A DNA stretch of 64,000 nucleotides from assembly GCA_963575745.1 (NCBI GenBank), contig CAUYUJ010019282.1, forward strand, positions 403,680 through 467,679. The letters run 5' to 3'. The DNA comes from Prorocentrum cordatum. Lineage: Eukaryota > Sar > Dinophyceae > Prorocentrales > Prorocentraceae. The position numbers were made by a program, and so were the translations under genes. Shown piece after piece: positions 24,324-51,046 of this stretch. How positions within the stretch are numbered: the first letter of the stretch is position 1; each line of letters opens with the position of its first letter. Under the pieces are notes generated by a model. That model saw only the letters and a list, made by a program, of their open reading frames with translations. It did no database searches and had not been told where the DNA came from.

Positions 24324-24359
24324 GGACAGCACCGGTCAAACCACGTTTCACCCCCTACC

Positions 24360-24521: not shown

Positions 24522-24626
24522 CCCAACCATCCTGTGGTGTTGGGTCCTCGTTTTGAAGAGACGGTGCCCCGCGTTTTCCTTCCTTCCTTCCTTCCTTCCT
24601 TCCTCCCGCTGCCTCCTCCCCCCTCC

Positions 24627-24667
<41 letters not shown>

Positions 24668-24689
24668 ATCACCCAATTCGGCACACCCC

Positions 24690-26335
24690 TCACACGTTTC
24701 GTGGCTCCATAGGGAGCTGAAGGCCCCAGTAGGGAGGGCACACGATAGGCCCACCGAGGCCCCAGTGCCCGCGCCCGCATGCGTCACCCACACCCATTTC
24801 GGCACACCCCTCACACGCGTGGCTCCATAGGGAGCTCCACCGAAGGCCCCAGTGCCCGCGGCCGCATGCGTCACCCACACCCATTTCGGCACACCCCTCA
24901 CACGTTTCGTGGCTCCATAGGGAGCTCCACCGAAGGCCCCAGTGCCCGCGGCCGCATGCGTCCCCCACACCCATTTCGGCACACCCCTCACACGTTTCGT
25001 GGCTCCATAGGGAGCTCCACCGAAGGCCCCAGTGCCCGCGGCCGCATGCGTCCCCCACACCCATTTCGGCACACCCCTCACACGTTTCGTGGCTCCATAG
25101 GGAGCTCCACCGAAGGCCCCAGTGCCCGCGGCCGCATGCGTCCCCCACACCCATTTCGGCACACCCCTCACACGTTTCGTGGCTCCATAGGGAGCTCCAC
25201 CGAAGGCCCCAGTGCCCGCGGCCGCATGCGTCCCCCACACCCATTTCGGCACACCCCTCACACGTTTCGTGGCTCCATAGGGAGCTCCACCGAAGGCCCC
25301 AGTGCCCGCGGCCGCATGCGTCACCCACACCCATTTCGGCACACCCCTCACACGTTTCGTGGCTCCATAGGGAGCTCCACCGAAGGCCCCAGTGCCCGCG
25401 GCCGCATGCGTCACCCACACCCATTTCGGCACACCCCTCACACGTTTCGTGGCTCCATAGGGAGCTCCACCGAAGGCCCCAGTGCCCGCGGCCGCATGCG
25501 TCCCCCACACCCATTTCGGCACACCCCTCACACGTTTCGTGGCTCCATAGGGAGCTCCACCGAAGGCCCCAGTGCCCGCGGCCGCATGCGTCACCCACAC
25601 CCATTTCGGCACACCCCTCACACGTTTCGTGGTTCCATAGGGAGCTCCACCGAAGGCCCCAGTGCCCGCGGCCGCATGCGTCACCCACACCCATTTCGGC
25701 ACACCCCTCACACGTTTCGTGGCTCCATAGGGAGCTCCACCGAAGGCCCCAGTGCCCGCGGCCGCATGCGTCACCCACACCCATTTCGGCACACCCCTCA
25801 CACGTTTCGTGGCTCCATAGGGAGCTCCACCGAAGGCCCCAGTGCCCGCGGCCGCATGCGTCACCCACACCCATTTCGGCACACCCCTCACACGCTTCGT
25901 GGCTCCATAGGGAGCTCCACCGAAGGCCCCAGTGCCCGCGGCCGCATGCGTCACCCACACCCATTTTCGGCACACCCCTCACACGTTTCGTGGCTCCATA
26001 GGGAGCTCCACCGAAGGCCCCAGTGCCGCGGCCGCATGCGTCACCCACACCCATTTCGGCACACCCACACGCTTCGTGGCTCCATAGGGAGCTCCACCGA
26101 AGGCCCCAGTGCCCGCGGCCGCATGCGTCACCCACACCCATTTCGGCACACCCCTCACACGCTTCGAGGCTCCATAGGGAGCTCCACCGAAGGCCCCAGT
26201 GCCCGCGGCCGCATGCGTCACCCACACCCATTTCGGCACACCCCTCACACGTTTCGTGGCTCCATAGGGAGCTCCACCGAAGGCCTCAGTGCCGCCGCCC
26301 GCATGCGTCACCCCCACCCATTTCGGCACCCCCCT
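24690..26335. repeat. 90-bp tandem array of module B, about 18 copies
   Basis: Exact 90-bp period with near-identical units (CATTTCGGCACACCCCTCAC, GTTTCGTGGCTCCATAGGG and AGCTCCACCGAAGGCCCCAG). The main variation is TCACCC versus TCCCCC. The last units have small deletions. Because 90 is a multiple of 3 and units lack stops in several frames, ORFs of 436-590 codons arise on both strands. Confidence 0.98.
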
Positions 26336-26344
26336 TGCATTTCT

Positions 26345-26820
26345 CGCACGGCAGGGTCATCACCACGGTGGCGTGCCAGGGGCGCACCATGCGCGAAGGC
26401 GACGGGGCGGGGGAACGGCGCTCCGGGGGCGGCCAGACCTCCGGGGCGCGAGCAGTCCGCGGCCAGACCATCTCTCGGTCCTGTGGACTCTCGCCCTGGG
26501 CCGTCGGCTGCCCGGCGCGCTGCTCCCTCGGTCGACGTCGCCCAGGCGTGATCCTGGATTGCGGCCGCCACGAGGTAGGGAACGGCAAGAAGGAGGACGA
26601 CGACTGGTGGCTGGAGCTCTACGTGCTGCTCTCGCGCGCCACGCGCCACGAGGACCTCCTGCTCATGCGGGCGCCGCGCATCGAGTTCTTCCTGGCAGGG
26701 CCGCCGCAGGGCTTGCGGAAGCAGCTGGAGCAGTTTGCTGCGCGCACGAAGCGGTGCAGGAGGGAAGCGACGGCCCTCGCCAGGGAGCTCGGCTTCACCG
26801 AGTTCATCCGCGAGGCCTGA
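26345..26820 (+). pseudogene. Captured C-terminal fragment of an SF1 (UvrD/Pif1-like) helicase
   Basis: Two conserved pieces are visible. VITTVACQGRTMREG resembles SF1 helicase motif V (T..H..QG.T), and LYVLLSRATRHEDLLLMRAP resembles motif VI (YV.LSR). They are followed by a helical tail ending in TGA at 26818-26820. A candidate GC-AG intron at 26399-26545 (147 nt, GC start, CCCAG end) would join the two pieces in frame as TMREGVILDC. Without splicing the frame is also open. Codon third positions are GC-rich, unlike the surrounding repeat. Everything 5' of motif V is missing and the array abuts it, so this is a host gene fragment carried inside module B. It could not work as a helicase alone. 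Confidence 0.72.
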
Positions 26821-26881
26821 CCTGAGGAGCGTCTCCCCCGAGCCGCGCCTTCTCTCGACTGCCCGACTAATTGTTTGGCCT

Positions 26882-27136
26882 CGCGCCGCGGACGACCCGC
26901 GCGCGTCGCTGGGACCCTCTCGGGGCGACCAGCGCGCGTCGCGGGAACTCCGTGCTGCGGGGGGCCCGGCGCCTCGTTCGCCCGTCGTCGCTCTGCCCAG
27001 CGGTCAGAGACTTGCCCGCTATCAGCCAGCCAGTTAGCTAGTCAGCTCTCTCTGCTTCGCGCAGCGGACGACCCGCGCGCGTCGCTGGGGCCCCGCCCGG
27101 GGCGACCAGCGCGCGTCGCGGGGACTCCGCGCTGCG
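26882..27136. repeat. ~79-bp direct repeat pair, GC-rich
   Basis: 26882-26960 and 27058-27136 are close copies (GGACGACCCGCGCGCGTCGC, then GGGGCGACCAGCGCGCGTCG). They lie between the helicase fragment and the right-end block. Confidence 0.85.
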
Positions 27137-27220
27137 CCGCGCCCGCAGCCTTGGATTTTGGAGTGCGCGGGCAAAGAGGAAGGAAAAGAAGAGCCGAAAG
27201 CGGGCGCGAACCTCGCAAGA

Positions 27221-27613
27221 GGCGTGCCGACATGGGCGTCGCGACGTGCGGACGCTGCCGTCGGGGCTCCCGCGGAAGCTGCCTGCGGCGGCCACGCCCA
27301 GTGTCACGTGTGTTCGGACAGGCATACTCGAACCATTCACATTCATATACACTTACACGAGGCGTTTCCATGATCGCGTTCATGCAAATATATTCATTCG
27401 CGCACAGACCCATTCATACTCAGATTCCCTCGCGCTCTGACTCACCCGCGTTCTTTCTTTCGTAATCAGATCTATCGTATTCCTTTGCGTTGTGTACCCC
27501 GCCACATTTCGGCACACCCCTCATGCGGTTCGTGGCCCCATAGGGAGCGCCACCGAAGAAGATACTCACAATTGCGATACTCACAACTGCATATGGTTGG
27601 GTCCTTCGCCAGG
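27221..27613 (+). repeat. Right-end block of module B, homologous to 47934-48334
   Basis: It begins GGCGTGCCGACATGGGCGTC and passes through an AT-richer stretch with CATTCA words. It then holds one repeat unit, two CACAATTGC-like copies, and ends CCTTCGCCAGG. Module D carries the same order of words, so this is an inherited part of the element. Confidence 0.85.
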
Positions 27614-28630
27614 ATAATTTGTTTTTACATTTGGATGGGTATGCTGCTGCGGGCGTTGGCGTCTTGGTGCACGAACGCCACGCTCAGAATATTCGCCGGG
27701 TATGTGCTGAGGCCGGCCGCATGATCGGGTTATTGGGGAGAAGCACATACACATTTAGTTCCACTTATGTTCCTCATGCTGGTTTTTCTCTGGATGAGTT
27801 CACCGAGTTCTACGACCGGCTTGATAACATGGCACGGGCGGCCCAGAGGAGAAGAAGTCATGTAGTTATTGGTGGCGATTGGAATACTCAGTACAATATC
27901 GGCCCAAGGGGGCAAATATTGAACGAATTCGTAGCGTGCCATGGTTTTCAATTAGCAAACTTTCCGCCCAGCCTGACCCACGCAGACGCGTGGACATTCC
28001 GATCGAGTCTTGGACACACAAGGTGCATCGACTTCATCTTAGTGCCTGGCTCCACACAGGTGGTGGACAGTAGAGCGGTTGATCTCTTGAGCTTGGGATC
28101 GGATCACAGGGCTGTACTTGCACACTTGACTATGAGAATCCGTACCCGGAAGCGCCAGCAGAAGTGGAATCATCGAGGTTGGCAACCGCGTGATGATGCG
28201 GATTATGGTCATGATTTGGACGCTCACTTGCAAGACAGTCCGCCAGGTAATCTGTCCCACTTGGACGCGTGCTTGGCCGCCGTTGCACCGGGACACGCCC
28301 AACAGCAGGAAGAGCAAACATGTTTCTGGAATCATACTGCTTTCCAGGAGCTGTTGCGTCAACGTCGAGCTCTCCCACACGGGTCCGCAGCCAGACGGGA
28401 CATGTCCAAACGTATTCGCAGAACTGTGCGTGCAGAGTTGCGGAGAAGAAAAGCGAGGCGCACCGAACAGATCCTCGGCGAGTTCTGCGATCTACATCGG
28501 CTCGCTGCAACCAAGTTCTTTCCAGCCCAAAGGAAGAAGGACGTAGTCGATGCACACAATGTCCTCCTGAATCTTTGGCGGGCTTCCTGGAGAACATATT
28601 CTCGTCTACAGCGGTGCCGCCGCCGGAGAT
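27614..28630 (+). pseudogene. LINE endonuclease C-terminal part and linker
   Basis: It resumes with HLDGYAAAGVGVLVHERH, then STYVPHAG, GGDWNTQYN (near 27871-27890), CIDFILVPG and SLGSDHRAV (28093-28115). These are the Tyr, Asp-Trp-Asn and Ser-Asp-His motifs of APE-type endonucleases. A basic linker follows (RRTVRAELRRRKARR) with a frame break near 28565-28600. Joining 24515 to 27613 keeps the endonuclease in one frame. The ATG near 27600 is not a real start. Confidence 0.88.
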
Positions 28631-30201
28631 GACGGACCAACGCGTGTTTACCAACATTCCCCAGTTTACCAAGATGGAGCTTACAAAAGCGATCCGGTCT
28701 TTGAACAATAAGAGGGGCGCCGACACGGATGGCATCGTCGCCGAGATGTTCAAGCACGCCTCCGATACATTTACCGATTGGTTATTGTTTTCTACAACAA
28801 GGTGCTGCTTACGGGCGAAGTGGAAGATTCTTGGAAAGACACGGTGTTTGCAATGCTTCCTAAGTCTGGGGATTTGGCACAGCCGAAAAACTGGAGACCG
28901 ATAACCATTCTCAAGACAACTTACAAAATATTCTCCCGCATGCTGTACCATCGCTTGCGCGACATCCTCGAACACGCGCAAGGGCCGGACCAAGTAGGCT
29001 TCAGGCCGAACCACTCGGTCGATGACGCGTTCCTGGTCTTCGAAGTGGCATGCAGCAAATGCATAGAATGGCAAGTGCCGCTGTGGTGCGCCAGTTTGGA
29101 TTTGACCAAAGCATTTGATCGGATTGAGTACGGCCCTCTCATTAATGCCCTCCGGCGCCAAGGCCTTGATGAAGACTACACTGCCTTGCTGGCGAGGCTG
29201 TATTCTGGACAGATGGGCAGCGTGTCGGGCGCGCAAGCTTTTCGCATCCAGCGGGGGGTCAAATCAGCCCGATGCTGTTCAACGCTGGTTTGGAGTTGGC
29301 AATGGAGAGATGGAAAATCCGCATTGGTCACGCCGGGTTGTTCATAGGAGCGGGCGAAAAACTCACGAACATACGTTACGCTGATGACATCATGTTGTAC
29401 GCGAGTTCTGCCGACGAGCTGGCCGCCATGATGGAAATTCTTATTGAGGAGCTTGACACAGTTGGTCTCCAGCTAAATCCGGAGAAGACACAGATTCTTA
29501 CCACGGAGGAGGGGATGGAGACTATGTTCATTGGGATTGGCGAGCACATGCTGAAAGTCATGGGAGGCAATGATGTCCACAAGTATTTGGGAAAAAGTAT
29601 ACCCGGGAGTTTGAAACGTCGTAACGATATCGAGTTGGGTCGACGATTCCAGCGAGCTTGGCACAAATTTCATGAACACCGTCATGTTCTCACAGACCAG
29701 AACGTATCCGTAAGACTGCGGCTGAAGCTTTTCCAATCAGTCATTACACCTACATTGTTGTTCGGACTATCGGCTGCGGCGTTGACCAAGCATCAAACGC
29801 AATCCCTGGACGTCCTTCAGAATAAGATGCTTCGCTTGGTTGTTGGTTGGAGGCGTTGCGAGGGCGAGGACTGGGCAGACACCATGAGACGCATGAGGGA
29901 CAGAATCGCCAATGCAATGCAGATCTTTCCGATTGAAAAATGGAGTGAATTGCATTACCGCCGCCTGTTCAGATTCGCGTGCAGGTCAGCATGCTCGGAC
30001 ACGGAATGGACTCAGAAAGTCATTATATGGAACCCGCGCTACACGCATGGGGCTACGAGGGCGCGCGGGCGCCCTCCGACGAGATGGGACGGCCGCCTCC
30101 AAGGATTCGCCCGCGATGTCTTGCATAATGTATCTCGCTGGTATGACAGTGTACACGATGGTGACGAGGACGCATTCGTCGAGTATTGCATTCACGCGTG
30201 A
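28600..30201 (+). pseudogene. LINE reverse transcriptase and C-terminal region
   Basis: RT motifs appear in order over three frames: PKNWRPITIL, DQVGFRPNHSVDDAFLVFE, SLDLTKAFDRIEY, RIQRGV, PMLFNAGLE and IRYADDIMLYAS (YADD at 29377-29388). The thumb reads HKYLGKSIPGS, VITPTLLFGLSAAAL and LDVLQNKMLRLVVGWRR. It ends with RGRPPTRWDGRLQGF and a TGA. Frame changes lie near 28570-28600, 28770 and 29262-29270, and the last one breaks the frame just before MLFN. The catalytic Asp pair is intact, but the frameshifts make this copy non-functional unless they are sequence errors. Confidence 0.92.
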
Positions 30202-30485
30202 GGACCGCCCCCGTTCTCTTTTCTTTCCTCCCCCCCCCCCTCGGAGGCACAACGTTTGCTCTCCGTTTACGCACGTGTGCGCTCAGGCCACTGTGCTGGA
30301 GCCTCGCCCGTCTACGGGCCAACCCATGTGGTTTGACCGGGCCTCTGTCTGTCTGTCTGTCTGTCTCCCAACGAGGCACTTCCATCCGTGGAAATGAGAT
30401 CCTTGTGTCGGGGCCCATGGAAAAGGGAACTTGGCGGGAGGGATCAGTCTAACACCGTTGATGAATATTGGGTTTACACTGGCCC
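30202..30485. other. LINE downstream region, (CTGT)n
   Basis: Contains poly-C near 30230 and a (CTGT)n run at 30343-30366. No tail of the LINE was recognised. Confidence 0.5.
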
Positions 30486-30605
30486 TCCCTCCTCATCTTC
30501 CTCCTCCTCATCCTTCTTTTCCTCCTCCTCCTCCTCCGCCTCCTCCTCCTCCTCGTGCTCCCCCCCCGGCCGTCACCTCGTGCTCCTCCTCGTGCTCCTC
30601 CTCGT
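30486..30605. repeat. (CCT)n/(CTCGTG) tract
   Basis: CCT trinucleotides followed by GTGCTCCTC units. Confidence 0.9.
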
Positions 30606-31649
30606 CGTGCTCCACCTTACGTAGTGGTGCAGCAACTCTGTCACGCGTCTTCCTGACAAGGCCACTCAGCAAGGGTCGGCCCCCCCTCGCGGCAGCGCAC
30701 GACACCCCAGCGGGAGCGAGCGGCAGCTACGGCACCGACGGCGGCAACGACGGCGGCCACGACGGCGGCGACCGCGCACGCGCACGCCAAGGGTTCTCGG
30801 AGACCGCTGGCGGAGGTGCTCGGCGATCGCAGCCATGGGCGCGGCTGCCTGGCCCGCCCGGCCCCCTGCCAGAGAGAGGAAAGGAGGGAGAGCCCAAAAA
30901 ACCTCGGGAGGGCCCATCCTGGAAAGCTTATCCTAAGCCTCTTGGGCCGTACTGGGGGCCCTTTGGGATGTCTTGAAGCCGTCATGGGCCGTCAGGGTAC
31001 TGTTTGGGAGACACCTGCGGCCGTCCGGAAGCCAAATTGTCCCGTTTTGGACTTCATCGGAGCCTCTTGGAACTCATGAAGCTTCCTCCGCGACTGCCTA
31101 CCAGCACGCCCCAAACCAACCCATAGACCCAAATTTCGGATTGGGGGGGCACGGGTCCCACGCGAGTTGTTCAACGTTTTTTGGTGTCCCCTCCCCCCCC
31201 CCCCCCTGCGGGGAACGCAAAGCAAATTGGGGCTTACGGGCTGGGTTGGGGCGGTTTGGTGTGCGGTGACTTTCAGGCGGGGTGGGTGCGAATGCCCCGG
31301 CGGGAAGGCCCCGGGGCAGAAGTTGACGCGGGCCAGGGCCCACGGGGCCAGATTTTGCGCATGTGAAAACTCCTCCCTGCATCCATCCATCGGCCCCCTC
31401 CCCTCCCCTCCCTTTTTGCGCAGCCGCGCTATGCGTATGAGAGATGGCAAATCCCACCCGTCCAAAGAACGACACGCCGCCAAACGGTGCCCACTCCCAT
31501 GGGGGAGGGAATGCGCCAACCAGAGCCTTGAGATTCGCCCCTTGGCTGGGTCCGTGGCCGAGTTTCCGGCAGGGGTCCCTCATGGCCTCTGGACGTCTCG
31601 AAATTCGAAGCCTCTGGAGGCCCAAAACCTGAATCGTCGAACATCGACT
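30606..31649. other. No gene; degenerate CCTCTTGG repeat
   Basis: 30905-31080 is built on CCTCTTGGG, GCCGTC and CCGTTTTGG words, the reverse complement of the degenerate repeat at 1495-1950. A short poly-C lies near 31194-31206. Confidence 0.5.
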
Positions 31650-31806
31650 CTCCTCCTCCTCCTCCTCCTCCTCCTCCTCCTCCTCCTCCTCCTCCTCCTC
31701 CTCCTCCTCCTCCTCTCTTCCTCCTCCTCCTCCTCCTCCTCCTCCTCCTCCTCCTCCTCCTCCTCTTCTTTTTCATATTCCTCCTCTTCCTCCTCCTCGT
31801 CCTCCT
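31650..31806. repeat. (CTC)n microsatellite
   Basis: About 155 bp of nearly pure CTC. Confidence 0.97.
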
Positions 31807-31879
31807 CGTTTCGCTCGGGGCAGGCGAGCGATTCGGGCTTCATGCACATGCGACTGCGAATTAAATGCGCGCGCCATCA

Positions 31880-32088: not shown

Positions 32089-34737
32089 CCCAACCATCCT
32101 GTGGTGTTGGGTCCTCGTTTTGAAGAGACGGTGCCCCGCGTTCTCCTTCCTTCCTTCCTTCCTTCCTCCCGCTGCCTCCTCCCCCTCCTCCTCCCTCCTC
32201 CCCCTCTTCCCTGCGTTTCACCCCCCCAGTACACCGTTTCGTGGCCCCATAGGAGCTCCGCCGAAGGCCCCAGTGCTGCCGCCCGCATGCGTCCCCCACA
32301 CCCAATTCGGCACACCCCTCACACGTTTCGTGGCCCCATAGGAGCTCCGCCGAAGGCCCCAGTGCTGCCGCCCGCATGCGTCACCCACACCCAATTCGGC
32401 ACACCCCTCACACGTTTCGTGGCCCCATAGGAGCTCCGCCGAAGGCCCCAGTGCTGCCGCCCGCATGCGTCCCCCACACCCAATTCGGCACACCCCTCAC
32501 ACGTTTCGTGGCCCCATAGGAGCTCCGCCGAAGGCCCCAGTGCTGCCGCCCGCATGCGTCCCCCACACCCAATTCGGCACACCCCTCACACGTTTCGTGG
32601 CCCCATAGGGAGCTCCACCGAAGGCCCCAGTGCTGCCGCCCGCATGCGTCCCGCACACCCAATTCGGCACACCCCTCACACGTTTCGTGGCCCCATAGGA
32701 GCTCCACCGAAGGCCCCAGTGCTGCCGCCCGCATGCGTCCCCCACACCCAATTCGGCACACCCCTCACACGTTTCGTGGCCCCATAGGGAGCTCCACCGA
32801 AGGCCCCAGTGCTGCCGCCCGCATGCGTCCCCACACCCATTTCGGCACACCCCTCACACGTTTCGTGGCCCCATAGGGAGCTCCACCGAAGGCCCCAGTG
32901 CTGCCGCCCGCATGCGTCCCGCACACCCAATTCGGCACACCCCTCACACGTTTTCGTGGCCCCATAGGAGCTCCGCCGAAGGCCCCAGTGCTGCCGCCCG
33001 CATGCGTCCCGCACACCCATTCGGCACACCCCTCACACTTTTCGTGGCCCCATAGGAGCTCCGCCGAAGGCCCCAGTGCTGCCGCCCGCATGCGTCCCGC
33101 ACACCCAATTCGGCACACCCCTCACGTTCGTGGCCCCATAGGAGCTCCGCCGAAGGCCCAGTGCTGCCGCCCGCATGCGACACCCAATTCGGCACACCCA
33201 CACGACAGGGAGCTCCGCCGAATGCGTCACGCACACCCAACACACACTCCGCCGAAGGCCCCAGTTTCGTGGCCCCATAGGGAGCTGCTGCCGCCCGCAA
33301 CACCCAATTCGGCACACCCTCACACGTTTCGTGGCCCCATAGGGAGCTCCGCCGAAGGCCCCAGTGCTGCCGCCCGCATGCGTCACGCACACCCAAGTCG
33401 GCACACCCCTCACACGTTTCGTGGCCCCATAGGGAGCTCCGCCGAAGGCCCCAGTGCTGCCGCCCGCATGCGTCACGCACACCCAATTCGGCACACCCCT
33501 CACACGTTTCGTGGCCCCATAGGGAGCTCCACCGAAGGCCCCAGTGCTGCCGCCCGCATGCGTCACGCACGCCCAATTCGGCACACCCCTCACACGTTTC
33601 GTGGCCCCATAGGGAGCTCCGCCGAAGGCCCCAGTGCTGCCGCCCGCATGCGTCCCGCACACCCAATTCGGCACACCCCTCACACGTTTCGTGGCCCCAT
33701 AGGGAGCTCCGCCGAAGGCCCCAGTGCTGCCGCCCGCATGCGTCACGCACACCCAATTCGGCACACCCCTCACACGTTTCGTGGCCCCAAAGGGGGCTCC
33801 ACCGAAGGTCCCGGCGGGTGTGCCCGCATGCGTCCCGCACATTTATTTCGGCACACCCCTCACACGCTTCGTGGCCCCATAGGGAGCTCCGCCGAAGGCC
33901 CCAGTGCTGCCGCCCGCATGCGTCCCGCACACCTATTTCGGCACACCCCTCACGCGTTTCGTGGCCCCACAGGGAGCTCCGCCGAAGGTCCCATGCGGCA
34001 CACCCCTCGGCATTCACACGCTTCGTGGCCCCATAGGGAGCTCCACCGAAGGCCCCAGTGGGTGTGCCCGCATGCGTCCCGCACACCCATTTCGGCACAC
34101 CCCTCACACGTTTCGTGGCCCCATAGGGAGCTCCACCGAAGGTCCCAGTGGGTGTGCCCGCATGCGTCCCGCACACCCTATTTCGGCACACCCCTCACAC
34201 GCTTTGTGGCCCCATAGGGAGCTCCACCGAAGGTCCCAGTGGGTGTGCCCGCATGCGTCCCGCACACCCATTTCGGCATGCTCTTCACACGTTTCGTGCC
34301 GAAGGCCCCAGTGGGTGTGCCCGCATGCGTCCCGCACACCCATTTCGGCACACCCCTCACGCGTTTCGTGACCCCTCACACGTTTCGTGGTCCCATAGGG
34401 AGCTCCACCGAAGGCCCCAGCGGGTGCGCCCGCATGCGCCCCGCACACCCAATTCGGCACACCCCTCGCACGTTTCGTGGCCCCGCAGGGGGCTCCACCG
34501 AAGGTCCCAGTGGGTGTGCCCACATGCGTCCCGCACACCCATTTCGGCACACCCCTCACACGCTTCGTGGCCACATAGGGAGCTCCACCGAAGGTCCCAG
34601 TGGGTGTGCCCGCACGCGTCCCGCGCACCCATTTCGGCACACCCCTCACACGTTTCGTGGCCCCATAGGGAGCGCCACCGAAGAAGAAATTCACAATTGC
34701 GGTATTCACAATTGCATATGGTTGGGTCCTTCGCCAG
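32089..34737 (+). mobile_element. Module C: composite element in a minus-strand LINE
   Basis: The left end CCCAACCATCCTGTGGTG is at 32089. A (TTCC)n/(CTCC)n spacer runs to about 32215, and about 27 array units lie at 32229-34680. A short right end with two CACAATTGC copies finishes CATATGGTTGGGTCC then TTCGCCAG at 34737. The long right-end block of modules B and D is absent. Flanks GCATGTTT and AATAATTTT are T-rich but not a clear duplication. The element is antisense to the LINE it splits. Confidence 0.8.
32229..34680. repeat. ~89-90-bp tandem array of module C, about 27 copies
   Basis: Units contain CACGTTTCGTGGCCCCATAG and the AGCTCCGCCGAAGG core. Two subfamilies are visible: CAGTGCTGCCGCCCGCATGC units up to about 33780, and GTGGGTGTGCCCGCATGC units after. 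The block 33110-33310 is scrambled, with partial units in odd order. Confidence 0.97.
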
Positions 34738-35700
34738 AATAATTTTCAGCGCCTCGTTCGAAGAAGACGGTCGCGCTGTCCCCGGGGAGCTGCAGGAAAT
34801 GCTCCAGTACAACACGCCGACCGTGATGAGTTGTCCTCCATGTGCACAATCACGCACGTGCGCGTTCCGAACCACTGCATACACACAGGGCAATGGTCGG
34901 CGCCGGTGAAAGCACCCATGTTCCTGCACACTCCACGCACAATTAAAGCATAGGTGGCCAAATGTTGACGCGTATTGCACGTGCACACACACACACACGC
35001 AACTCTGGCATCTATACTCGGCGTCCACGTCGGCCATGCGGCGGGTCCGCGCCCAAGCCTGCACATAAATTACCGCCCTCTCCCCCTTCGTTTTTTCCGA
35101 AGGCCGCGCGGAATCGTCTGAGACTGTCGCGGGCGACAAAAGTCCACTCAGCAACCGTTTTCCGCCCCGGCGCAGAGGAAACACCAACGTGTTCAGACAA
35201 CATGTCGAAGTCTTCGGTCAAGGCCGCACTCCATAAGCGACAAACGCCTACTGTGCGGGAAGACAAAACGCAAAGCGTTAGCGTGCCATTCAAGCATACT
35301 CTTCTGCACAAGCAATGCCTCATGTACAATCTAAATACGGATGGGGCTATGCAATCATCATGAGACGAAACAGCAACGTGGGAGGGGGCACGGACACCGT
35401 CCCGGCTAGACTGGGAAATGCTGGAACAGACTTTCATTACGGCAGTGTGTACGCGCGAGTAAACCCACTGGCGTGGAGCCGTGGCCAAGTTCCAGCCTGA
35501 TGCAAGCCCCGTGTGCAACAGGATGATGCCCTGGCACGCCGCCATCCGCATCTCAGATTCCTGGTGCAAGATGCCGCGGCGAATCTGCTTGAAGGTCGAG
35601 GGCATAGCCCGAGTACTGGCGATGATTTCCGGCTGCACGGCGGCCGTAGAACACGTCAAAGTCCCCGCGCGTTTGGAGCGGGGCGCCGCCACGAGCCGGC
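34738..35700 (-). pseudogene. Second LINE, C-terminal region with zinc finger
   Basis: The minus strand carries HCPVCMQWFGTRTCVIVHME, a C-x2-C-x12-H finger (34842-34892) with Cys residues ten and eleven residues later as possible fourth ligands. Upstream in another frame is STFKQIRRGILHQESEMRMA with a helical region. LINEs of this group end with a similar single finger after the RT. Frames change several times and module C cuts the 3' part. No RT motif was found upstream, so this is a 5'-truncated or decayed copy. Confidence 0.55.
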
Positions 35701-38960: not shown

Positions 38961-39138
38961 CAATCCATTATTGGGAGAACACTAAGGTCCAAACCACCTG
39001 AGGTGCTGGACCCTGGGTAGCATTTAAGTTTACAATTCGGCCTATATCGATAAATCGTGCCTCTTCCGTCGTCGCAAGCGAACCGTCGCGACAGATTCGG
39101 CGTGGAAGGCGCCCCGTTGCACGCCAATAGAAAATTAG
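38961..39138 (-). pseudogene. Integrase C-terminal-like segment
   Basis: The minus frame reads FYWRATGRLPRRICRDGSLA, then TTEEARFIDIGRIVNLNATQ, ending LVFSQ and a stop. The pattern (short beta strands with aromatic and basic residues, then TxEE) resembles the C-terminal domain of retrotransposon integrases. The integrase core-like part lies on the other side of module F, at 41751-41975. Confidence 0.45.
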
Positions 39139-39227
39139 CCTGGCGAAAGACCCAGCCATATGCAGTTGTGAACACCGCAAGTGCGAATGCCATCTTCGCC
39201 CGCGCCCCCAATGAGGCCACGGCTTCC

Positions 39228-39425
39228 CGCCGGGGCCCGACGTGCTCAGGAACGCGTTTGTGGCCGTCTTCGCGGGCGCCGACGACGACAAGGACGGCGC
39301 CCCTCTGACCGACGAGCAGAAGCTGGAGAGGGCTTTGAGAGCCATGGGGGAGGACGCGTCGGCGCACGTCGAGAAGGCGCAGTACGACGCCCAGACGCGG
39401 TCGCTGAAGCAACACAACTATAAGG
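39228..39425 (+). pseudogene. Captured coding fragment inside module F
   Basis: The plus-strand frame AFVAVFAGADDDKDGAPLTD continues to EQKLERALRAMGEDASAHVE and KAQYDAQTRSLKQHNYK, then runs into the array. Composition and G/C third positions look like a genuine dinoflagellate exon. An upstream CTCAG could be a 3' splice site. I do not recognise the family. It occupies the same place as the helicase fragment in module B, between array and right end. Confidence 0.6.
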
Positions 39426-39429
39426 CCGG

Positions 39430-41430
39430 TCCTCGTGAGGGGTGTGCCGAAATGGCCAGGGGCCGCCGTGGGAACCCTGCCACTGGGGGCCTTCGGTGGA
39501 GCTCCTACGGGGCCACGATCCTCGCGATGGGGTGTGCGGAAATGGCCCGAGGCCGCCGTGCGAACCCTGCCACTGGCGATTTCGGTGGAGCTCCTTATGG
39601 CTCCTTATGGGGCCACGATCCTCGTGAGGGGTGTGCCGAGATGGCCCGAGGCCGCCATGCGAACCCTGCCACTGGCGCCTTCGGTGCAGCTCCTATGGGG
39701 CCACGATCCTCGCGAGGGGTGTGCCGAGATGGCCCGAGGCCGCCATGCGCACTTCGCTACTGGCGCCTTCGGTGGAGCTCCCTATGGGGCCACGATCCTC
39801 GTGAGAGATGCGCCGAAATGACCCGAGGCCGCCATGCGCACTTTGCTATTGGGACCTTCTGTGGAGCTCCCTGTGGGGCCGCGATCCTCGTGAGTGGTGT
39901 GCCGAAATTGCCCGAGGCCGCCATGCGCACTCTGCTACAGTCGCCTTCGGTGGAGCTCCTATGGGGCCACGATCCTAGTGAGGGACGTGCCGAAATGGCC
40001 CGAGGCCGCCATGCGCACTTTGCTACTGTCGCCTTCGGTGGAGCTCCTATGGGGCCACGATCCTCGTGAGGGGCGTGCCGGCATGGCCCGGGGCCGCCAT
40101 GCGCACTCTGCAACTGGCGCCTTCGGTGGAGCTCCTATGGGGCCACGATCCTCGCGAGGAGTGTGCCGAAATGGCCCGAGGCCGCCATGCACACTTTGCT
40201 ACTGGCGCCTTCGGTGGAGCTCCTATGGGGCCACGATCCTCGTGAGTGGTGTGCCGGAATGGCCCGAGGCCGCCACGCGCGCTTTGCTACTGGCGCCTTG
40301 GGTGGAGCTCCTACGGAGCCACGATCCTCATGAGGGGTGTTCTGAAATGGCCCGAGGCCGCCATGCGCACTTTGCTACTGGCGCCTTCGGTGGAGCACCT
40401 ATGGAGCCACGATGCTCGCGAGGGTGTGCCGACATGCCCGAGGCCGCCATGCGCACTTTGCTACTGGCGCCTTCGGTGTAGCTCTTATGGGGCCACGATC
40501 CTCGCGAGGGGTGTGCCAAAATGGCCCAAGGCCGCCATGCGAGACCTGCCACTGGCGCCTTCGGTGGAGCTCCTATGGAGCCACGATCCTCGCGAGGGGT
40601 GAGTGCCGGAATGGCCCGAGGCCGCCATGCGCACTTTGCTGTTGGCGCCTTCGGTGGAGCTCCTATGGAGCCACGAACCTCGCGAGGGGTGTGCCGAAAT
40701 GGCCCGAGGCCGCCATGCGAACCCTGCCGCTGGCGCCTCCGGTGAGGTCCTATGGGGCCACGATCCTCGCGAGGGGTGCGTGCCGAAATGGCCCGAGGCC
40801 GCCATGCGCACTCTGCTACTGTCGCCTTCGGTGGAGCTCCTATGGGTCCACGATCCTCGTGAGGGGTGTGCCGAAATGGCCCGAGGCCGCCATATGCGCA
40901 CTTTGCTACTGTCGCCTTCGGTGGAGCTTCTATGGGGCCACGATCCTCGTGAGGCGCCTTCGGTGGAGCTTCTATGGGGCCACGATCCTCGTGAGGGGCG
41001 TGCCGGAATGGCCCGAGGCCGCCATGCGCACTTTGCCACTGGCGCCTTCGGTGGAGCTTCTATGGGGCCACGATCCTCGTGAGGGGCGTGCCGGAATGGC
41101 CCGAGGCAGCCATGCGCACCTTGCTACTGGCGCCTTCGGTGGAGCTCCTATGGGGCCACGATCCTCGCGAGGGGTGAGTGCAGAAATGGCCCGAGGCCGC
41201 CATGCGCACTTTGCAACTGGCGCCTTCGGTGCAGCTCCTATGGGGCCGCGATCCTCGTGAGTGGTGTGCCGAAATTGCCCGAGGCCGCCATGCGCACTTT
41301 GCTACTGGCGCCTTCGGTGGAGCTCCTATGGGGCCTGATCCCCGCGAGGTGCGTGCCGAAATGGTCCGAGGCCGCCATGCGCACTTTGCTACTGGCGCCT
41401 CGGGCGGAGCTCCTATGGGGCAACGACCCT
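39430..41430. repeat. ~88-bp tandem array of module F, about 22 copies
   Basis: Units contain GCCGAAATGGCCCGAGGCCG, CATGCGCACTTTGCTACTGG and GGAGCTCCTATGGGGCCACG. They form a distinct subfamily from the arrays of B, C and D. A partial unit duplication lies near 40955-40990. Confidence 0.97.
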
Positions 41431-41557
41431 CGCGACAGCGATGACAACGACGCCGATGACGATGATGCTAGGAGGAGGGAGGGGGCAGCGGGAGGGTGGA
41501 AGGAACGCGGGGCGCTGTCTTTTCAAAACGAGGACCCAACGCCACAGGATAATTGGG

Positions 41558-43742: not shown

Positions 43743-44163
43743 GGATTTTGAATATCTGGCGGGAACTTCTTCGCAGTGGCCCCTGGGCCTTGTCCGCCGC
43801 CACTTGGCTGAGCCACTGGCTTCGGAGGAGTTGGTGGCCCGGGAGGCGGGGGGGGTTGCCTTGGCACGCGCTGCGGGGGGGCCTGGCTCGCGAGTGGTGG
43901 AACCATCGGAGACTGGCTCGTAGCGCGTCCACTACCGCTCGATTGGGCTGTCGATAGAGCCTTTGGATCCGCTGGAGGCGGCGGTGGCTTTGCTGGCCTT
44001 GGATCCGCTGGAGGCGGTGGCGGCTTCGCGGGTGCAGTCTGAAACTGAGCTCCCGCGCCACTCGGTGGAACTGGTGGTAGCTTGGCCTCGGCGGTAGGGG
44101 GCGAACTCGAAGCAGACCTGCCCGCTGGCTGAGCCGGTGGCTTGGTCTTCGCTTCAGTTAATT
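43743..44163 (-). other. Pro-rich coding-like linker
   Basis: Minus frames are rich in Pro, Ala and Gly, and several are open. It probably links two parts of the decayed retroelement. Confidence 0.3.
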
Positions 44164-45175
44164 AAGCTTTTGCCTCCTACAATCCGAATCGTTTCCTCCG
44201 AAGCGCCATCCAATAGTGGGCGCGCAGAAGCAATCCAGCACCCCGCGCCTGTCATATATATCCAACGTCCTCCATCGGCGGATGAAAAACAAGGTATGGG
44301 GACGCATTTCTTGCCAGTCCATGGGTTGACAGCCCGGGACCCACTCGCACTGCGCCGTTATGACGCTGTTGGTCTCTATGGTTATGTCGGCGTCTCTGGT
44401 TCTTTCAACTCCGAAATATCAGTCAACGGCTTCGCCGTCTTCAAGAGGATGCCGCATCAACGTCCAAGCACCCTGGATCGAATGAAGAGCGGCTGGGGTC
44501 CAATGGTAGATGCGTATCTCAGACACAGCAATCTCGGCTGGGCCCTTCGTGCACTTATGATTTGGACTGTTGCTGGCCGTGACGTACTTCGGCCTGCTCC
44601 AAAACGCGATCTCGATGGTGTTCCAATAACCGTCGGCAAACGTCTCCTCCGCCATCGTGCATTTCCCGTGGACAGAGGGGTCGCCCTCCTCATATGAAAA
44701 CGAATCAACCCCAACACTGCCCTGCTTTACGTTTCCCCCGCACTTGGGATCCGACGCGAGGAGTTGATGCCCTTCGAGAATTCGAGAAGGGCGCGGAGCA
44801 TGCCTGCCGAGGATCCATGTGACTGCCCTTGCCAGCCATTTCCAACAATGACCTCCTCCATCTTCGTGCTTACCCTGAGAGGAAATGTGAGCTGTACGCA
44901 GTAGTCTTTCTCTGCGCGCCCCAGAACTGCCGCCTTGCCCCACATGGCGCGGCCGGCAATGGATCTGTTTTCTCTCGGCACCGAGCGATCACGTCTCGCA
45001 GTGAAGAACTCTGCCCCGCTTGGAACCAGGTACTCAGCAGAAAGCGTCGGTCTGCGAGTAAACCGTCGGAGTGCATTTGCTCCGCCAGAAACAATTTCCC
45101 CTGAACTGACCTATTCAGCCTACGATCGGCAAAACTATGCTCGATTGGATCGGCACGGCGCTCTATTTGTCGCAA
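44164..45175 (-). pseudogene. Unrecognised coding-like segment of the decayed retroelement
   Basis: Two frames look real: KDYCVQLTFPLRVSTKMEEV at 44727-44981, and EETFADGYWNTIEIAFWSRP at 44419-44720 continuing to AVSEIRIYHWTPAALHSIQG. A frame change near 44720 separates them. Beta-rich character (many V, Y, W and T) could suggest a globular domain, but I do not recognise it. Confidence 0.4.
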
Positions 45176-46290
45176 CAGCTCATTGTAATCTTCTCCTGGC
45201 TACAAATCGTTCGGGCTGCGACCGCGCTCCATCAACTTCTGCGCTGCCAGAGGCTTGAGGAACATGGCTCTTTCCTCGCCCACCGTAAAGGTGGCCGTGG
45301 TATGGTATCAAAGTTTGTCTTGCCATCTGCGTGCGCCATGATCCCCCACCGGGGGGTGCTTCCAGCCCGTCTTCTCCCCTGGCCTTCTTCTCCAGCGCTG
45401 TTTTCATGACATTTCTCCCTCATCTCTCGTTCGCAGCGCTCTGGCGGAGTCTCCGCAGCTGGTGCCCTAGCGGGTTCGACAAATCGCGCGCGACTCTTTG
45501 CTGCACTCGCGGCTGAGGAGCAAGCGGCGGCCGCGGCGCCCGCTGGGCCCTGCGCGGCTGCGACAGCAGAGCCAGCTGATGAACTGACTACCTCCACTTC
45601 AGCTTGCGGTTGTTCGGCTGAGCCGACGGCGTACTGAGCAGCCACGGCGCTCCCAATCGCCTGTCCGGCTATGCCGGCAAGAGATTGGAATGGCAGTCGT
45701 GAGTCTTCAGTTTGTCTGACTGCTCCTTGCAAGTGCTGATCGATTCCAATCTCCTGTCGGGGTTGCCACAAGGTCTGCCCCTTAGGGGGGGGGGGCGAGA
45801 ATGGCGGGGGCGCTGCGTTCGAGAAAGAAATGAAATTCCCTCCGCTGAACAAAATTCTCGCATCCTTCTCCCGCCAACAGGAAATCGTACCATTCCGCAG
45901 AGAGCGTCGCGCCCCGCCCTCCGAACCGTCTGAGACGGCCGGGAACCGTTTCGCGTCGATATAAGCGCGCCAAGGGTCGATTGTGGCGTGCCCGAAACCG
46001 TTGGGCACCATTGAGTCCAATGGTACCATATCGTCGTATGTCGCTTCCACCTGCGCGCATCCGCCTGCCCGGGTCGGACCAGCATTACCAGCTCCATGAA
46101 TGGCTGCCGCCAGAGGGCTGGCGCAAAAAAAACCATGCTGCAATCTTAGCAGCCTTCAGCCGAAGGTCCTCAAACGTTTCAGCAATCGTTGCGTCCGCCT
46201 GTTGGGCCCCCTTCTCTACCATGTATGTCTCGCGCTTGGCGAGACAATACTGCGCGTCGTTCGGTGGATGTTTGAACTTCTGTTTTTTTC
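45176..46290 (-). pseudogene. Gag-like N-terminal region of the decayed retroelement
   Basis: Starting at the module D junction the minus frame reads KRETYMVEKGAQQADATIAE, then TFEDLRLKAAKIAAWFF. It shifts at an A8 homopolymer (about 46126-46133) into a frame with DDMVPLDSMVPNGFGHATID and later an Ala/Ser-rich stretch. Composition and position suggest a Gag-like N-terminus. This is inference, since no zinc knuckle was found. Confidence 0.4.
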
Positions 46291-46386
46291 CCAACCATCC
46301 TGTGGTGTTGGGTCCTCGTTTTGAAGAAACGGTCCCCGCGTCTCCTCCTCCTCTCCTCCTCCGCCTCCCCCCCCCTCCTCCTCCTC

Positions 46387-47933
46387 GCACCCCTCACACG
46401 TTTCGTGGCCCCATAGGGAGCTCCACCGAAGGCCCCAGCGCTGCCGTCCGCATGCGTCCCGCACACCCATTTCGGCACACCCCTCACACGTTTCGTGGCC
46501 CCATAGGGAGCTCCACCGAAGGCCCCATGGCTGCCGTCCGCATGCGTCCCGCACACCCATTTCGGCACACCCCTCACACGTTTCGTGGCCCCACAGGGAG
46601 CTCCACCGAAGGCCCCAGGCTGCCGTCCGCATGCGTCCCGCACACCCATTTCGGCACACCCCTCACACGTTTCGTGGCCCCACAGGGAGCTCCACCGAAG
46701 GCCCCATGGCTGCCGTCCGCATGCGTCCCGCACACCCATTTCGGCACACCCCTCACACGTTTCGTGGCCCCACAGGGAGCTCCACCGAAGGCCCCAGTGC
46801 TGCCGTCCGCATGCGTCCCGCACACCCATTTCGGCACACCCCTCACACGTTTCGTGGCCCCATAGGGAGCTCCACCGAAGGCCCCATGGCTGCCGTCCGC
46901 ATGCGTCCCGCACACCCATTTCGGCACACCCCTCACACGTTTCGTGGCCCCACAGGGAGCTCCACCGAAGGCCCCAGTGCTGCCGTCCGCATGCGTCCCG
47001 CACACCCATTTCGGCACACCCCTCACACGTTTCGTGGCCCCATAGGGAGCTCCACCGAAGGCCCCATGGCTGCCGTCCGCATGCGTCCCGCACACCCATT
47101 TCGGCACACCCCTCACACGTTTCGTGGCCCCACAGGGAGCTCCACCGAAGGCCCCAGTGCTGCCGCATCGTCGCATGCGTCCCGCACACCGTTTCGGCAC
47201 ACCCCTCACACGTTTCGTGGCCCCATAGGGCAGCTCCCCCATAGGGAGCTCCACCGAAGGCCCCATGGCTGCCGTCCGCATGCGTCCCGCACACCCATTT
47301 CGGCACACCCCTCACACGTTTCGTGGCCCCACAGGGAGCTCCACCGAAGGCCCCAGTGCTGCCGTCCGCATGCGTCCCGCACACCCATTTCGGCACACCC
47401 CTCACACGTTTCGTGGCCCCATAGGGAGCTCCACCGAAGGCCCCATGGCTGCCGTCCGCATGCGTCCCGCACACCCATTTCGGCACACCCCTCACACGTT
47501 TCGTGGCCCCACAGGGAGCTCCACCGAAGGCCCCAGTGCTGCCGTCCGCATGCGTCCCGCACACCCATTTCGGCACACCCCTCACACGTTTCGTGGCCCC
47601 ATAGGGAGCTCCACCGAAGGCCCCATGGCTGCCGTCCGCATGCGTCCCGCACACCCATTTCGGCACACCCCTCACACGTTTCGTGGCCCCACAGGGAGCT
47701 CCACCGAAGGCCCCAGTGCTGCCGTCCGCATGCGTCCCGCACACCCATTTCGGCACACCCCTCACACGTTTCGTGGCCCCATAGGGAGCTCCACCGAAGG
47801 CCCCATGGCTGCCGTCCGCATGCGTCCCGCACACCCATTTCGGCACACCCCTCACACGTTTCGTGGCCCCACAGGGAGCTCCACCGAAGGCCCCAGTGCT
47901 GCCGTCCGCATGCGTCCCGCACACCAGGTGTGT
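46387..47933. repeat. 90-bp array arranged as 180-bp dimers (module D)
   Basis: Units alternate between CCATAGGG...CCATGGCTGCCGTC and CCACAGGG...CCAGTGCTGCCGTC forms, giving a 180-bp higher-order period over most of the array. An irregular unit with a partial duplication lies at about 47160-47250. ORFs up to 756 codons result from the repeat. Confidence 0.97.
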
Positions 47934-48334
47934 GGCGTGCCGACATGGGCGTCGCGGCGCGCGGGCGCTGCCGTCGGGGTTCCCAGGGAAGCCCCCTGCA
48001 GAGGCGACGCTCAGAGTCACGAGTACCGAGAGTCACGCAGACCCAAACTGTTCACAGTCGTATACATACATTTACACTGGGCGTATCCATGCACGCATTC
48101 ATGCGAATAGAATCAATCGCGCGCAGATTCATTCATAATCAGACTCGCTCGCGATCCGACTCGCACGCGCTCAAGCTTTCATATTCGGACCTATCGTCTT
48201 CGTTCGTGTTGTGTACACTGCCACGCATTTCGGCACACCCCTCATACGGCTCGTGGCCCCATAGGGAGCGCCACCGAAGAAGATATTCACAATTGCGGTA
48301 CTCTCAACTGCATATGGTTGGGTCCTTCGCCAGG
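47934..48334 (+). repeat. Right-end block of module D
   Basis: Same word order as 27221-27613: GGCGTGCCGACATGGGCGTC, a CATTCA-rich stretch, GTTGTGTACACTGCCAC, one array-like unit, two CACAATTGC-like words, then the CCTTCGCCAGG end. Confidence 0.85.
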
Positions 48335-48930
48335 CGAAGTTTATTAAACATGAAATACGCCGACCGGCGTGTGTGGGGTGTCTGTCCGGTCCCATCGACG
48401 GGGAGCCTTCTTTCGTCCCCTCGTTCCCATCCTCCTCTCCCGTTGGGGGAGAGAAAAAGAGAGCACCCTTCTTCGTTCGGGAAAAACGGGTTCGCAGCTG
48501 GAGGGAATTCCATCCACGTCCTCATCACGTCAAAGGGAAGCCCCTTCCCTTTTTCCCTTCCCCAGGGGGGGGGAGGGGGGTCCCGGAAGGGGAGGGGGTC
48601 AGATTCGTATCGCCTCTGGGGGTGCTCTCCCACGCCGGTCACTCTCCGGCGCGCCCGTCCTCCTCGAGTCCTCCTCCCCAGGTGGGGAGGAGTCCCACCC
48701 CCTCCCCTCCCTTCTCCCGCGCCGGTCCTCCTCCGGTCCTCCTCCCCAGGGGGGGGGGGGGTCCCAGGGCGGAGTCCTTTTCCTCCTCCTTCTCCTCCTC
48801 CACCTCCTCCTCCTTATCTCCGTTTCCTCCTCCTCCTCCTTCTCCTCCTCCCCCTCCTGGTCGTCGTCGATGTCTTTCAGGGTCGGCGGCACCAGCCGTA
48901 AAGCCTTCACAATACCCCTGACCCTCTGGG
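48335..48930. other. G/C-homopolymer and CTCC-rich sequence, no clear gene
   Basis: Poly-G runs near 48566 and 48750 and (CTC)n at 48780-48855. A minus-strand frame with LVPPTLKDIDDDQEGEEEKE translates part of the repeat and could be the edge of a coding region. Confidence 0.4.
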
Positions 48931-49406
48931 AGGAGACCTGAGTTAGGAGGGCCAGAAGCATCAGGGATAAGGGGATCTTTTCTGAAGGTGTATCGGACCA
49001 GACCGCCCAGATGTATGATCCCGAATGCAAGAGCGGGGACCTGAGTGAGGCCCCGTCTCCATCGTGTTATTAGGGTTAGGGGTTCTTGTATTCCCGATCC
49101 TCTCAATCTTTTGGTAAACAAAAAATTCTCCCTAGCCCTTTTGGAGCAGACCTGACTTAGGAGGGCCAGAAGCATCAGGGATTGAGAGTCTTTTCTGAAG
49201 GTGTACCGGACTAAACCGCCCAGATGTATGATCCCGAATGCAAGGGCGGGGACCTAAGTGAGGCCACGTCTTCATCGTGTTAGTAGGGTTAGGGGATATT
49301 GTGGTCTCGATCCTCTTAACCTTTTTGACAAACGTAAAAATACTCCCTAGCCCTTTGTGAGGAGACCTGAGTTAGGAGGACCAAAAGCATCAGTGACAGG
49401 GTTGTT
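48931..49406. repeat. 215-bp tandem repeat, 2.2 copies, cut by module E
   Basis: AGGAGACCTGAGTTAGGAGG starts at 48931, with a variant at 49145 and a third start at 49360. Units share CCGCCCAGATGTATGATCCC and TAGGGTTAGGGG. The third copy stops after ~47 bp, where module E begins. Confidence 0.92.
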
Positions 49407-51046
49407 CCCAACCATCCTGTGGTGTTGGGTTCTCGTTTTGAAGAGACAGCGCCCCGCGTCCTCCCTCATCCTCCTCCTCCCCTCCTCCCTCGTCCTCCCT
49501 CCTCCCCCTCCTCCCTGCGTTTCACATACCCAGTACAGCGGTTCGTGGCCCCATACGGAGCCCCACCGAAGGTCCCAGTGCTGCCGCCCGCATGCGCCCC
49601 GCACGCCCAGTACAGCGTTTCGTGGCCCTCCTCCCCCTGCTCCCTGCGTTTCCCCCACCCAGTACATAGTCTCGTGGCCCCGTAAGGGAGCCCCACCGAA
49701 GTGGCCCTCCTCCCCCTGCTCCCTGCGCTTCACCCACCCAGTACATCGTTTCGTGGCCCCATAGGGAGCCCCGCCGAAGGTCCCAGTGCTGCCGTCCGCA
49801 TGCGTCCCGCACACCCAGCACAGCGTTTCGTGGCCCTCCTCCCCATTTTCCCTGCGTTTCACCCACCCAGTACAGCGTTTCGTGGCCCCATAGGGAGCCC
49901 CGCCGAAGGTCCCAGTGCTGCCGTCCGCATGCGTCCCGCACACCCAGCACAACGCTTCGTGGCCCCATAGGGAGCCCCACCGAAGGCCCCAGTGCTGCCG
50001 TCCGTACGCGTCCCCCCACCCAGTACAGCGTTTCGTGGCCCTCCTCCCCCTGCTCCCTGCGTTTCACATACCCAGTACAGGGTGGCGTGGCCTCATGGGA
50101 AGCCCCACCGAAGGTCCAATGCTGCCGCCCGCATGCGTCCCTCGCACCCAGTCCAGCGGTTCGTGGCCCTCCTCCCCCTCCTCCCTGCGTTTCACCCACC
50201 CAGTACAATGTTCCGTGGCCCCATAGGGAGCCCCACCGAAGGTCCCAGTGCTGCCGCCCGCGTGCGTCCCGCACACCCAGTACAACGTTTCGTGGCCCCA
50301 CAGGAGGCCCCACCGAAACCACTAGTGGGACCGTCCGCATGCGTCCCGAAACGCCTAATTGGGCATTTTCGCCCACCCAGTACAACGTCTCGTGGCCCCA
50401 TAGGAAACTCCACCGAAGGCCCCAGTGCCGCCGTCCGCATGCGTCCCGAAAACACAATGTGGCATTTTTACCAACCCAGAACAGCGCTTCGTGGCCCCAT
50501 AGGGAACCCCACCGACGGCCCCGGAGGGACTGTCCGCAAGCGTTCCGAAACACCCTGTGGCATTTTCACTCACCCAGTACAGCGCTCCGTGGCCCTATAG
50601 GGAGCCCCACCGAATGCTTCAGTGCCACCGTCCGCATACGTCCCGAAAGCCCAATGTGGCACTTTCACCCGCCCAGTACAACGCTTCGTGGCTCCATAGG
50701 GAGCTCCACCGAAGCGCCCAGTGAGACCGTCCGCGTGCGTCCCGGAAACTCAATTTGGCATTTCCTCCCACCCAGTAAAGCGCTTCGTGGCCCCATTGGG
50801 AGCTCCACCGAAGGCCCCAGTTCCACCGTCCGCATGGGTCCCCGAAACCCAATGTGGCATTTTCACACACCCATTACAGCGTTTCGTGGCCCCCATAGGA
50901 AGCTCCACCGAAGCGCCCAGTGGGAGCGTCCGCGTGCGTCCAGGAAGCCCAATTTGGCACACCACCCACTCAGTACAGCGTTCCCCCCACGCAGTGCAGC
51001 GCTTAGTTGCCCCATAGGGAGCTTCATGGTTGGGTCCTTCGCCAGG
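49407..51046 (+). mobile_element. Module E: composite element with irregular array
   Basis: The left end CCCAACCATCCTGTGGTG is at 49407. A CTCC-rich spacer, an irregular array (49530-51020) and a shortened right end (ATGGTTGGGTCCTTCGCCAG) at 51046 follow. The two CACAATTGC words are missing. The left flank is GGGTTGTT and the right flank ATATTTTTT. Confidence 0.75.
49530..51020. repeat. Irregular ~75-95-bp array of module E
   Basis: Units share TTCGTGGCCCCATAGGGAGC, CCACCGAAGGTCCCAGTGC and GTCCGCATGCGTCCC, but replace the usual CACACCCCTCACAC part with CACCCAGTACAGCG. CTCC-rich spacer pieces (CCCTGCGTTTCACCCACC) are interspersed in the first half. It is more diverged than the other arrays. 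Confidence 0.93.

Follow-up and report, generated by a model that had tools for sequence, protein, structure and literature searches.

Among described rolling-circle transposons, four groups come closest to the repeat family treated here, and each is considered on the basis of sections of the paper that describes it. Helitron2 elements of Chlamydomonas and others (PMC3627910) possess asymmetric terminal inverted repeats (ATIRs), a 5' hairpin built on the ATIR and a 3' ATIR about 20-30 bp from the end, and insert after runs of T. FoHeli1/2 of Fusarium oxysporum (PMC5148889) likewise have ATIRs and a 5' hairpin, together with a T-rich terminus (ATATTTT). Helentrons, HINE and DINE-1 (PMC4067079) use a TT target and carry subterminal inverted repeats and, in some non-autonomous copies, tandem repeats; their Rep motif reads ExQxRG(S/L), the S after RG being given in that paper as Helentron-like. 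Finally, Cg_HINE of the Pacific oyster (PMC7492417) combines a 5' subterminal inverted repeat with a complementary inverted repeat, a microsatellite, satellite-like central repeats and a 3' subterminal inverted repeat, in T-rich targets and without target duplication. In all these respects the four groups resemble a family of composite blocks found in a 64,000-nucleotide stretch of the dinoflagellate Prorocentrum cordatum (GCA_963575745.1, contig CAUYUJ010019282.1, positions 403,680 to 467,679), hereafter the window. Our analyses leave little doubt that these blocks, designated elements A to F, are non-autonomous Helitron2-type rolling-circle transposons of the HINE kind, internally deleted from elements of the same genome that encode a RepHel transposase.

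The resemblance is not complete in any of the four cases. Unlike Helitron2, the P. cordatum elements carry long satellite arrays, and a strong 3' hairpin forms in element D only of the four folded; the FoHeli target is TNAT|T, and a central satellite is not described for FoHeli1/2 in the sections considered. Helentrons in the strict sense were rejected because Pfam recognised no endonuclease domain fused to RepHel in the proteins scanned with their N-terminus (P0023 and L029). With respect to Cg_HINE, the host is another one, the satellite core here lies in the 3' region of the RepHel-encoding partner, the 3' palindrome is mostly degenerate, and the likeness is one of description only. The HINE/DINE-1-like features found are the subterminal inverted repeats, the inverted repeat, the microsatellite, the central tandem repeats and the TT target. 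The kind is therefore already known from the oyster Cg_HINE and DINE-1, and the P. cordatum family is a further member. A literature search at title and abstract level, with most subscription journals outside its coverage, found no description of a satellite-carrying Helitron or HINE in dinoflagellates; helitrons in Symbiodinium receive a passing mention in the section considered of one paper.

The initial annotation had delimited five blocks with a common left and a common right end and a sixth, reversed block with the left end only, and both statements were borne out. The window contains six left ends (five exact and one with three mismatches; chance mean 0.08) and five right ends (four exact and one with two mismatches; chance mean 0.00), located where they had been placed, with the correction that element D begins at 46290 and not at 46291. 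Every right end is preceded by a left end in the same orientation; the left end of element F is unpaired. In a self-comparison of the window with arrays masked, the matches listed between blocks span 84-123 bp at the left end and 90-116 bp at the right end, element E not being among the right-end matches, and a 3' region of 401 bp is common to elements A and D.

The expected co-occurrence of the two ends elsewhere in the genome was also found. In the window's own assembly (4.128 Gb, 21,875 contigs), the exact left end occurs 17,959 times (8953 and 9006 per strand) and the exact right end 9,304 times (4604 and 4700 per strand), the reversed controls giving none. Pairing was evaluated within a 4-kb limit on the first 100 places listed per end, using the stretch covered by both listings. 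Among the right ends listed, 34 of the 60 exact ones are preceded by an exact left end on the same strand, as against five with a left end downstream on the same strand and one and two in the opposite-strand arrangements; among the left ends listed, 34/100 have an exact right end within that distance. We also sampled 28 copies in listing order, eight with 1.5-kb flanks and 20, consecutive from C26 on, in stretches of up to 8 kb. In 16 of the 20 longer stretches a right end with at most four mismatches precedes the next left end (the match in L011 being weak); none does so in L010, L012, L014, where the contig ends, and L017. At two mismatches or fewer, L006, L011 and L022 drop out, and 15 of the 28 sampled copies remain paired together with the five window elements, these 20 paired elements measuring 335-3335 bp (median 1826.5).

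At the left, the terminal CCCAACCAT constitutes a 5' ATIR at the very terminus, as in Helitron2, where an ATIR of 8-15 bp lies 0-2 bp from the 5' end and contributes to a 5' hairpin. It had been described as the inverse complement of a subterminal right-end sequence, which is true of ATGGTTGGG in elements A, B, D and E but not in C, where it has drifted. The proposed fold of CCCAAC against GTTGGG was confirmed, the stem being complete in 30 of the 34 left ends examined; folded as DNA, the common left end reaches -5.4 kcal/mol (z -2.6) and the element C version -2.8 kcal/mol (z -1.3). The CCAG that had been taken for the right end is present but falls six bases short of it: in most copies the element extends to CCAGG[A/C]TAAT, where conservation stops and T-rich host DNA follows. 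The 3' ATIR ATGGTTGGG starts 26 bases before this endpoint, within the 20-30 bp of Helitron2. A canonical Helitron (Helitron1), with a 3' CTRR, an A|T target and no 5' hairpin, was rejected on account of the TAAT 3' end of most copies, the T|T target and the 5' hairpin.

A T precedes 26 of the 28 sampled left ends, TT precedes 23 of them, and T follows the 26-base right end in 18/20 paired elements. Flanks match over four or more bases in 5 of 20 cases against a shuffled mean of 3.5, so that target duplication is at chance level; the placement in T runs, with no target duplication above chance, is that of Helitron2, which inserts at TTTT|T/C without target duplication. These data bear on whether the blocks are miniature inverted-repeat transposable elements (MITEs) moved by a cut-and-paste (DDE) transposase, the second comparator of the initial annotation, which had also suggested the HINE/DINE relationship retained here. 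A short inverted repeat near both ends, the lack of an intact gene and the high copy number would all suit MITEs; the repeat, however, is asymmetric, its left copy forming the very terminus and its right copy beginning 26 bases before the end, target duplication does not exceed chance, and RepHel remnants lie inside the copies. MITEs were rejected on these grounds, and we regard this alternative as extremely improbable. As a separate observation, at L042, L043 and L004 a left end starts approximately 9-13 bp past the right end of a neighbouring copy in the same orientation; insertion into the T-rich border would produce such head-to-tail neighbours, and so would tandem rolling-circle products.

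Paralogous sites lacking the whole block were found for elements A and B. Element A splits a long interspersed nuclear element (LINE), and the reading joined over its junction (GHNLF) aligns to the relative P0045 with no length change at the junction, a one-base frame slip in the joined reading, marked X, being set aside in that alignment. A DNA search with the joined flanks of element A gave 27 matches, 24 of which run uninterrupted through the junction at 76-96% identity; two of the other three come from the split window copy itself, and the third is an additional piece of another copy. Eleven of the 24 extend to query base 258-260 and exceed the query in length by 7-11 bases; the remaining 13 stop by base 244 and show length differences of -5 to +5 (0 or +1 in eight cases), which places the extra bases mostly beyond base 244 and away from the junction at 130. 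For element B, 16 of 20 rows are uninterrupted through the junction (75-81% identity), the other four being accounted for by the split window copy and by one interrupted at a different place. At element A the host ATAATT coincides with the GATAAT of the element, so a 6-bp duplication is possible at this site alone; the other copies argue against it.

Introners are elements that generate an intron where they insert, and they are known to be common in dinoflagellates. They have been reported for P. cordatum itself, in the section considered of PMC10666404, and the CCAG|G within the right end could serve as a 3' splice site. The empty sites and the ends are nonetheless explained without splicing, and the RepHel-encoding partners have the same right end, which makes it very unlikely that the blocks are introners.

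No coding capacity had been noticed in the blocks, and while none contains an intact gene, RepHel remnants in elements A and C had been missed. The helicase piece in element A is 85% identical to the relative P0002 over 159 aa (tblastn), and its last 82 aa are 90% identical to that protein. Element A and P0002 share an intron-like in-frame insertion (about 26392-26544, between CQGRTM and GVILDCGRHE) relative to P0003 and P0004; eight C-terminal matches in the genome fall into separate pieces, the pattern to be expected of such an insertion. The piece in element C was considered as a captured host gene, and this was rejected when it proved to be RepHel; locus L022 repeats its antisense arrangement. 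The plan of element A, consisting of left end, array, RepHel C-terminus and right end, is repeated in L009 and L023.

A wider protein search with P0004 identified 41 proteins, including the query, among 8000 scored candidates. Helitron_like_N was found in one of the 18 relatives scanned with Pfam, P0023 (1959 aa; E 1e-12), which also carries the Rep motif VEAQGRGSLHPH; PF14214 is present in P0023 and L029, and the matches of the relatives are otherwise mostly weak ones to PIF1 or AAA. The YxxxYTxK motif occurs in 6 of 43 relatives, precisely the six with Walker A at residue 777 or later; in the other relatives where it was recognised, Walker A lies at residue 682 or earlier, which indicates that most relatives are without the N-terminal part. 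Also bearing on the fused endonuclease domain of Helentrons, among 34 relatives with a recognised motif VI, 33 end 50-75 aa after its start and P0039 ends 123 aa after it. Searches with P0004 gave no match in the viral contigs and genome contigs databases, and a PDB search by sequence gave none either.

In the genome of the window, P0011 has at least 38 matches and P0002 at least 78, many in long open frames and some with internal stops. EAQGRGSLHPH, YVNSYT[TA]K and GQGGSGKT are present in all nine RepHel loci scanned (L033 of ten being left out), and in the eight of ten RepHel loci in which a tail was found it is 91-98% identical to the 82-aa tail of element A. Over 6 kb upstream, two RepHel copies share 98.5% identity. 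The 3' survey covered 16 loci (L029-L044), in 13 of which the helicase end was recognised by pattern (L033, L038 and L044 were not). In 11 of these 13 the family right end, with at most three mismatches, lies 379-779 bp after the stop, eight times at 772-779 bp; L042 and L043 have T-rich bases after CAGG instead of MTAAT. The two exceptions are L032, whose sequence ends 538 bp after the stop, and L037, which has no right end. L037 is a near-full-length RepHel on the contig of the window (C18433:682698-687179, minus strand), with no right end in its stretch and a same-strand left end 226 bp after the stop. The RepHel partners thus show the HxH and tyrosine motifs and the superfamily 1 helicase of Helitron2 and share the right end of the blocks in 11/13 cases.

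Helitrons capture genes, and the helicase piece of element A might accordingly be a captured host PIF1 gene rather than a transposase remnant, in keeping with the mostly weak PIF1 or AAA matches and the single Helitron_like_N match described above. In genes of the window's genome, however, a single frame encodes the same helicase together with Helitron_like_N and the HxH and Y motifs, and it is the tails of these genes that match the 82-aa tail so closely. Because the family right end lies behind the long-frame RepHel genes, a PIF1 capture is refuted, and we assign it a practically negligible probability.

The interpretation of the blocks as Helitron2-type elements of the HINE kind is hence supported by a common 5' end with hairpin and ATIR, a common 3' end with subterminal ATIR, placement in T runs, uninterrupted paralogues of A and B, RepHel remnants, and long-frame RepHel genes with the same 3' end; the original proposal of a non-autonomous mobile element carrying its own satellite is upheld by the one-orientation pairing of the ends, the paralogous empty sites, the Helitron2 ends and the right end shared with RepHel genes. 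Several observations weigh against this interpretation. Exact left ends are about twice as numerous as exact right ends, and among the matches listed an exact left end within 4 kb is missing for 26 of 60 right ends. Folding gives a strong 3' hairpin for D (-5.2 kcal/mol, z -2.9), a weak one for A (-1.7, z -0.9) and almost none for B and C. The empty-site paralogues of element B, all 16 of them, fall 2-10 bases short of the joined flanks, nine by 6, which implies a small difference somewhere in or near the site, and the element B site may be inexact. No left end was found upstream of RepHel in L029-L038, L045, L046 and L047; in the RepHel copy at C3814 none occurs within 14.6 kb upstream of the right end, so that no RepHel copy with both ends was seen, and the link between left end and RepHel is provided by element A, L009 and L023. 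Finally, transposition is here inferred from sequence only.

The tandem arrays had been recognised correctly, although their monomers measure about 88-101 bp, with a shared core, rather than 75-93 bp; they follow a simple-repeat spacer. Allowing up to three edits, 110 occurrences of the core fall within the blocks and two elsewhere in the window. Mean pairwise identity of monomers is 98% within A and 85% within C; monomers of A, B and D are 84-87% alike, and those of C are 50-67% identical to every other block. At least one core is present in 20/20 paired elements and six or more in 19/20, the 335-bp copy L016 having both ends and one recognisable core. Since the array makes up most of most copies, the blocks could be a dispersed satellite, spread by recombination or extrachromosomal circles, whose common borders are incidental. 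The ends, however, are sharply conserved beside T-run targets, L016 is bounded by both of them, and at the empty sites of A and B the block is missing as a whole; this reading is refuted as a full account and is barely conceivable as such, though the process may contribute to local changes in array length.

The RepHel-encoding elements point to a source for the satellite. In the element at C3814, 54 bp located some 35-95 bp before the 3' ATIR match satellite monomers, with 47/54 positions identical to the element A monomer consensus and about 82-90% identity to copies in other loci among the matches listed; nothing in the 3' region of that element corresponds to the other ~36 bp of the monomer. 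Of the 11 RepHel loci bearing a right end, seven have exactly one 54-bp core, about 60 bp before that end, which suggests that the satellite was probably derived from the transposon. L036, L042 and L043 carry further cores, and L041 shows none at up to three mismatches. An array grown from the element's own sequence is the simpler reading of these sequences; alternatively, an array may have collapsed to one partial unit in the RepHel lineage.

By analogy with the known family, from which we infer rolling-circle copying, the RepHel protein would nick the 5' end, displace a strand and terminate in the region of the 3' ATIR, and the copy would be inserted between two Ts. The satellite would have arisen by tandem amplification of the ~54-bp 3'-subterminal piece together with ~36 bp of other sequence, and would be carried along and re-homogenised copy by copy. 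A bolder proposal, which we advance tentatively and consider somewhat doubtful, is that the transposon acts as a satellite generator: rolling-circle copying would repeatedly amplify the ~54-bp segment, transposition would both create and scatter the satellite, and each copy would homogenise its own array.

Coordinates of the elements, their parts and the interrupted host sequence are collected in Table 1.

Table 1. Elements of the family and associated features in the window
Feature	Positions	Strand	Description
Element A	24522..27618	+	Left end, (TTCC)n/(CAT)n spacer, ~90-bp array, RepHel C-terminal remnant, 3' region, right end; sits within LINE endonuclease open reading frame
Conserved left end of A	24522..24575	+	Terminal CCCAACCAT = 5' ATIR; downstream GTTGGG able to pair as 5' hairpin
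Satellite array of A	24751..26335	+	90-bp monomer, 98% mean identity inside array
RepHel transposase C-terminal remnant in A	26341..26820	+	Helicase motif VI and tail; stop 26818-26820; intron-like insertion
3' region of A	27221..27618	+	Common to element D and RepHel copies; one partial satellite monomer; 3' ATIR ATGGTTGGG at 27593-27601; terminus CCAGGATAAT
Element B	32089..34743	+	Left end, spacer, array, right end
Element C	39134..41557	-	Diverged copy; left end at 41557, right end at 39134
RepHel N-terminal fragment in C	39221..39421	+	Antisense to element C; ~60 bp from 3' ATIR; arrangement repeated in L022
Element D	46290..48339	+	Left end, array with 180-bp higher-order pattern, 400-bp 3' region as in A, right end with perfect CTTCGC/GCGAAG stem (GCGAAG replaces GMTAAT)
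Element E	49407..51051	+	Left end, irregular array, right end
Element F	8470..9071	-	Left end, spacer, ~100-bp array; without right end (3'-truncated or one-ended)
Host target, 5' part	24324..24521	+	LINE endonuclease open reading frame split by element A
Host target, remaining LINE	27619..30198	+	Endonuclease and reverse transcriptase, frame-shifted; LINE also listed as 27544-30198

Two further repeats adjoin elements of the family. Beside element F, positions 9249-11914 hold a second, different satellite array of 79-90 bp with a higher-order pattern of period 269, around which none of the family's ends was found; and a 213-bp tandem repeat in 2.3 copies (48911-49393) adjoins the left end of element E. 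Of the 164 window open reading frames of at least 150 aa, 40 were scanned with Pfam, which gave LINE and sub-threshold matches only. No match was obtained for either element end in the viral contigs database, for the element 3' region in phages, or in an Rfam search, and the dinoflagellate spliced-leader motif was not found in the window at up to three mismatches.

A repeat with about 18,000 exact left ends in a multi-gigabase dinoflagellate genome now has a name, both ends and a transposase family. Satellite-carrying HINE elements are thereby extended beyond the animals treated in the sections considered of the HINE papers. Moreover, the family provides a concrete case for the question raised in the part of the oyster paper considered here (PMC7492417), namely whether the central repeats were captured or grew from the element's own sequence, in that a 54-bp core occurs once near the right end in 7/11 RepHel copies.

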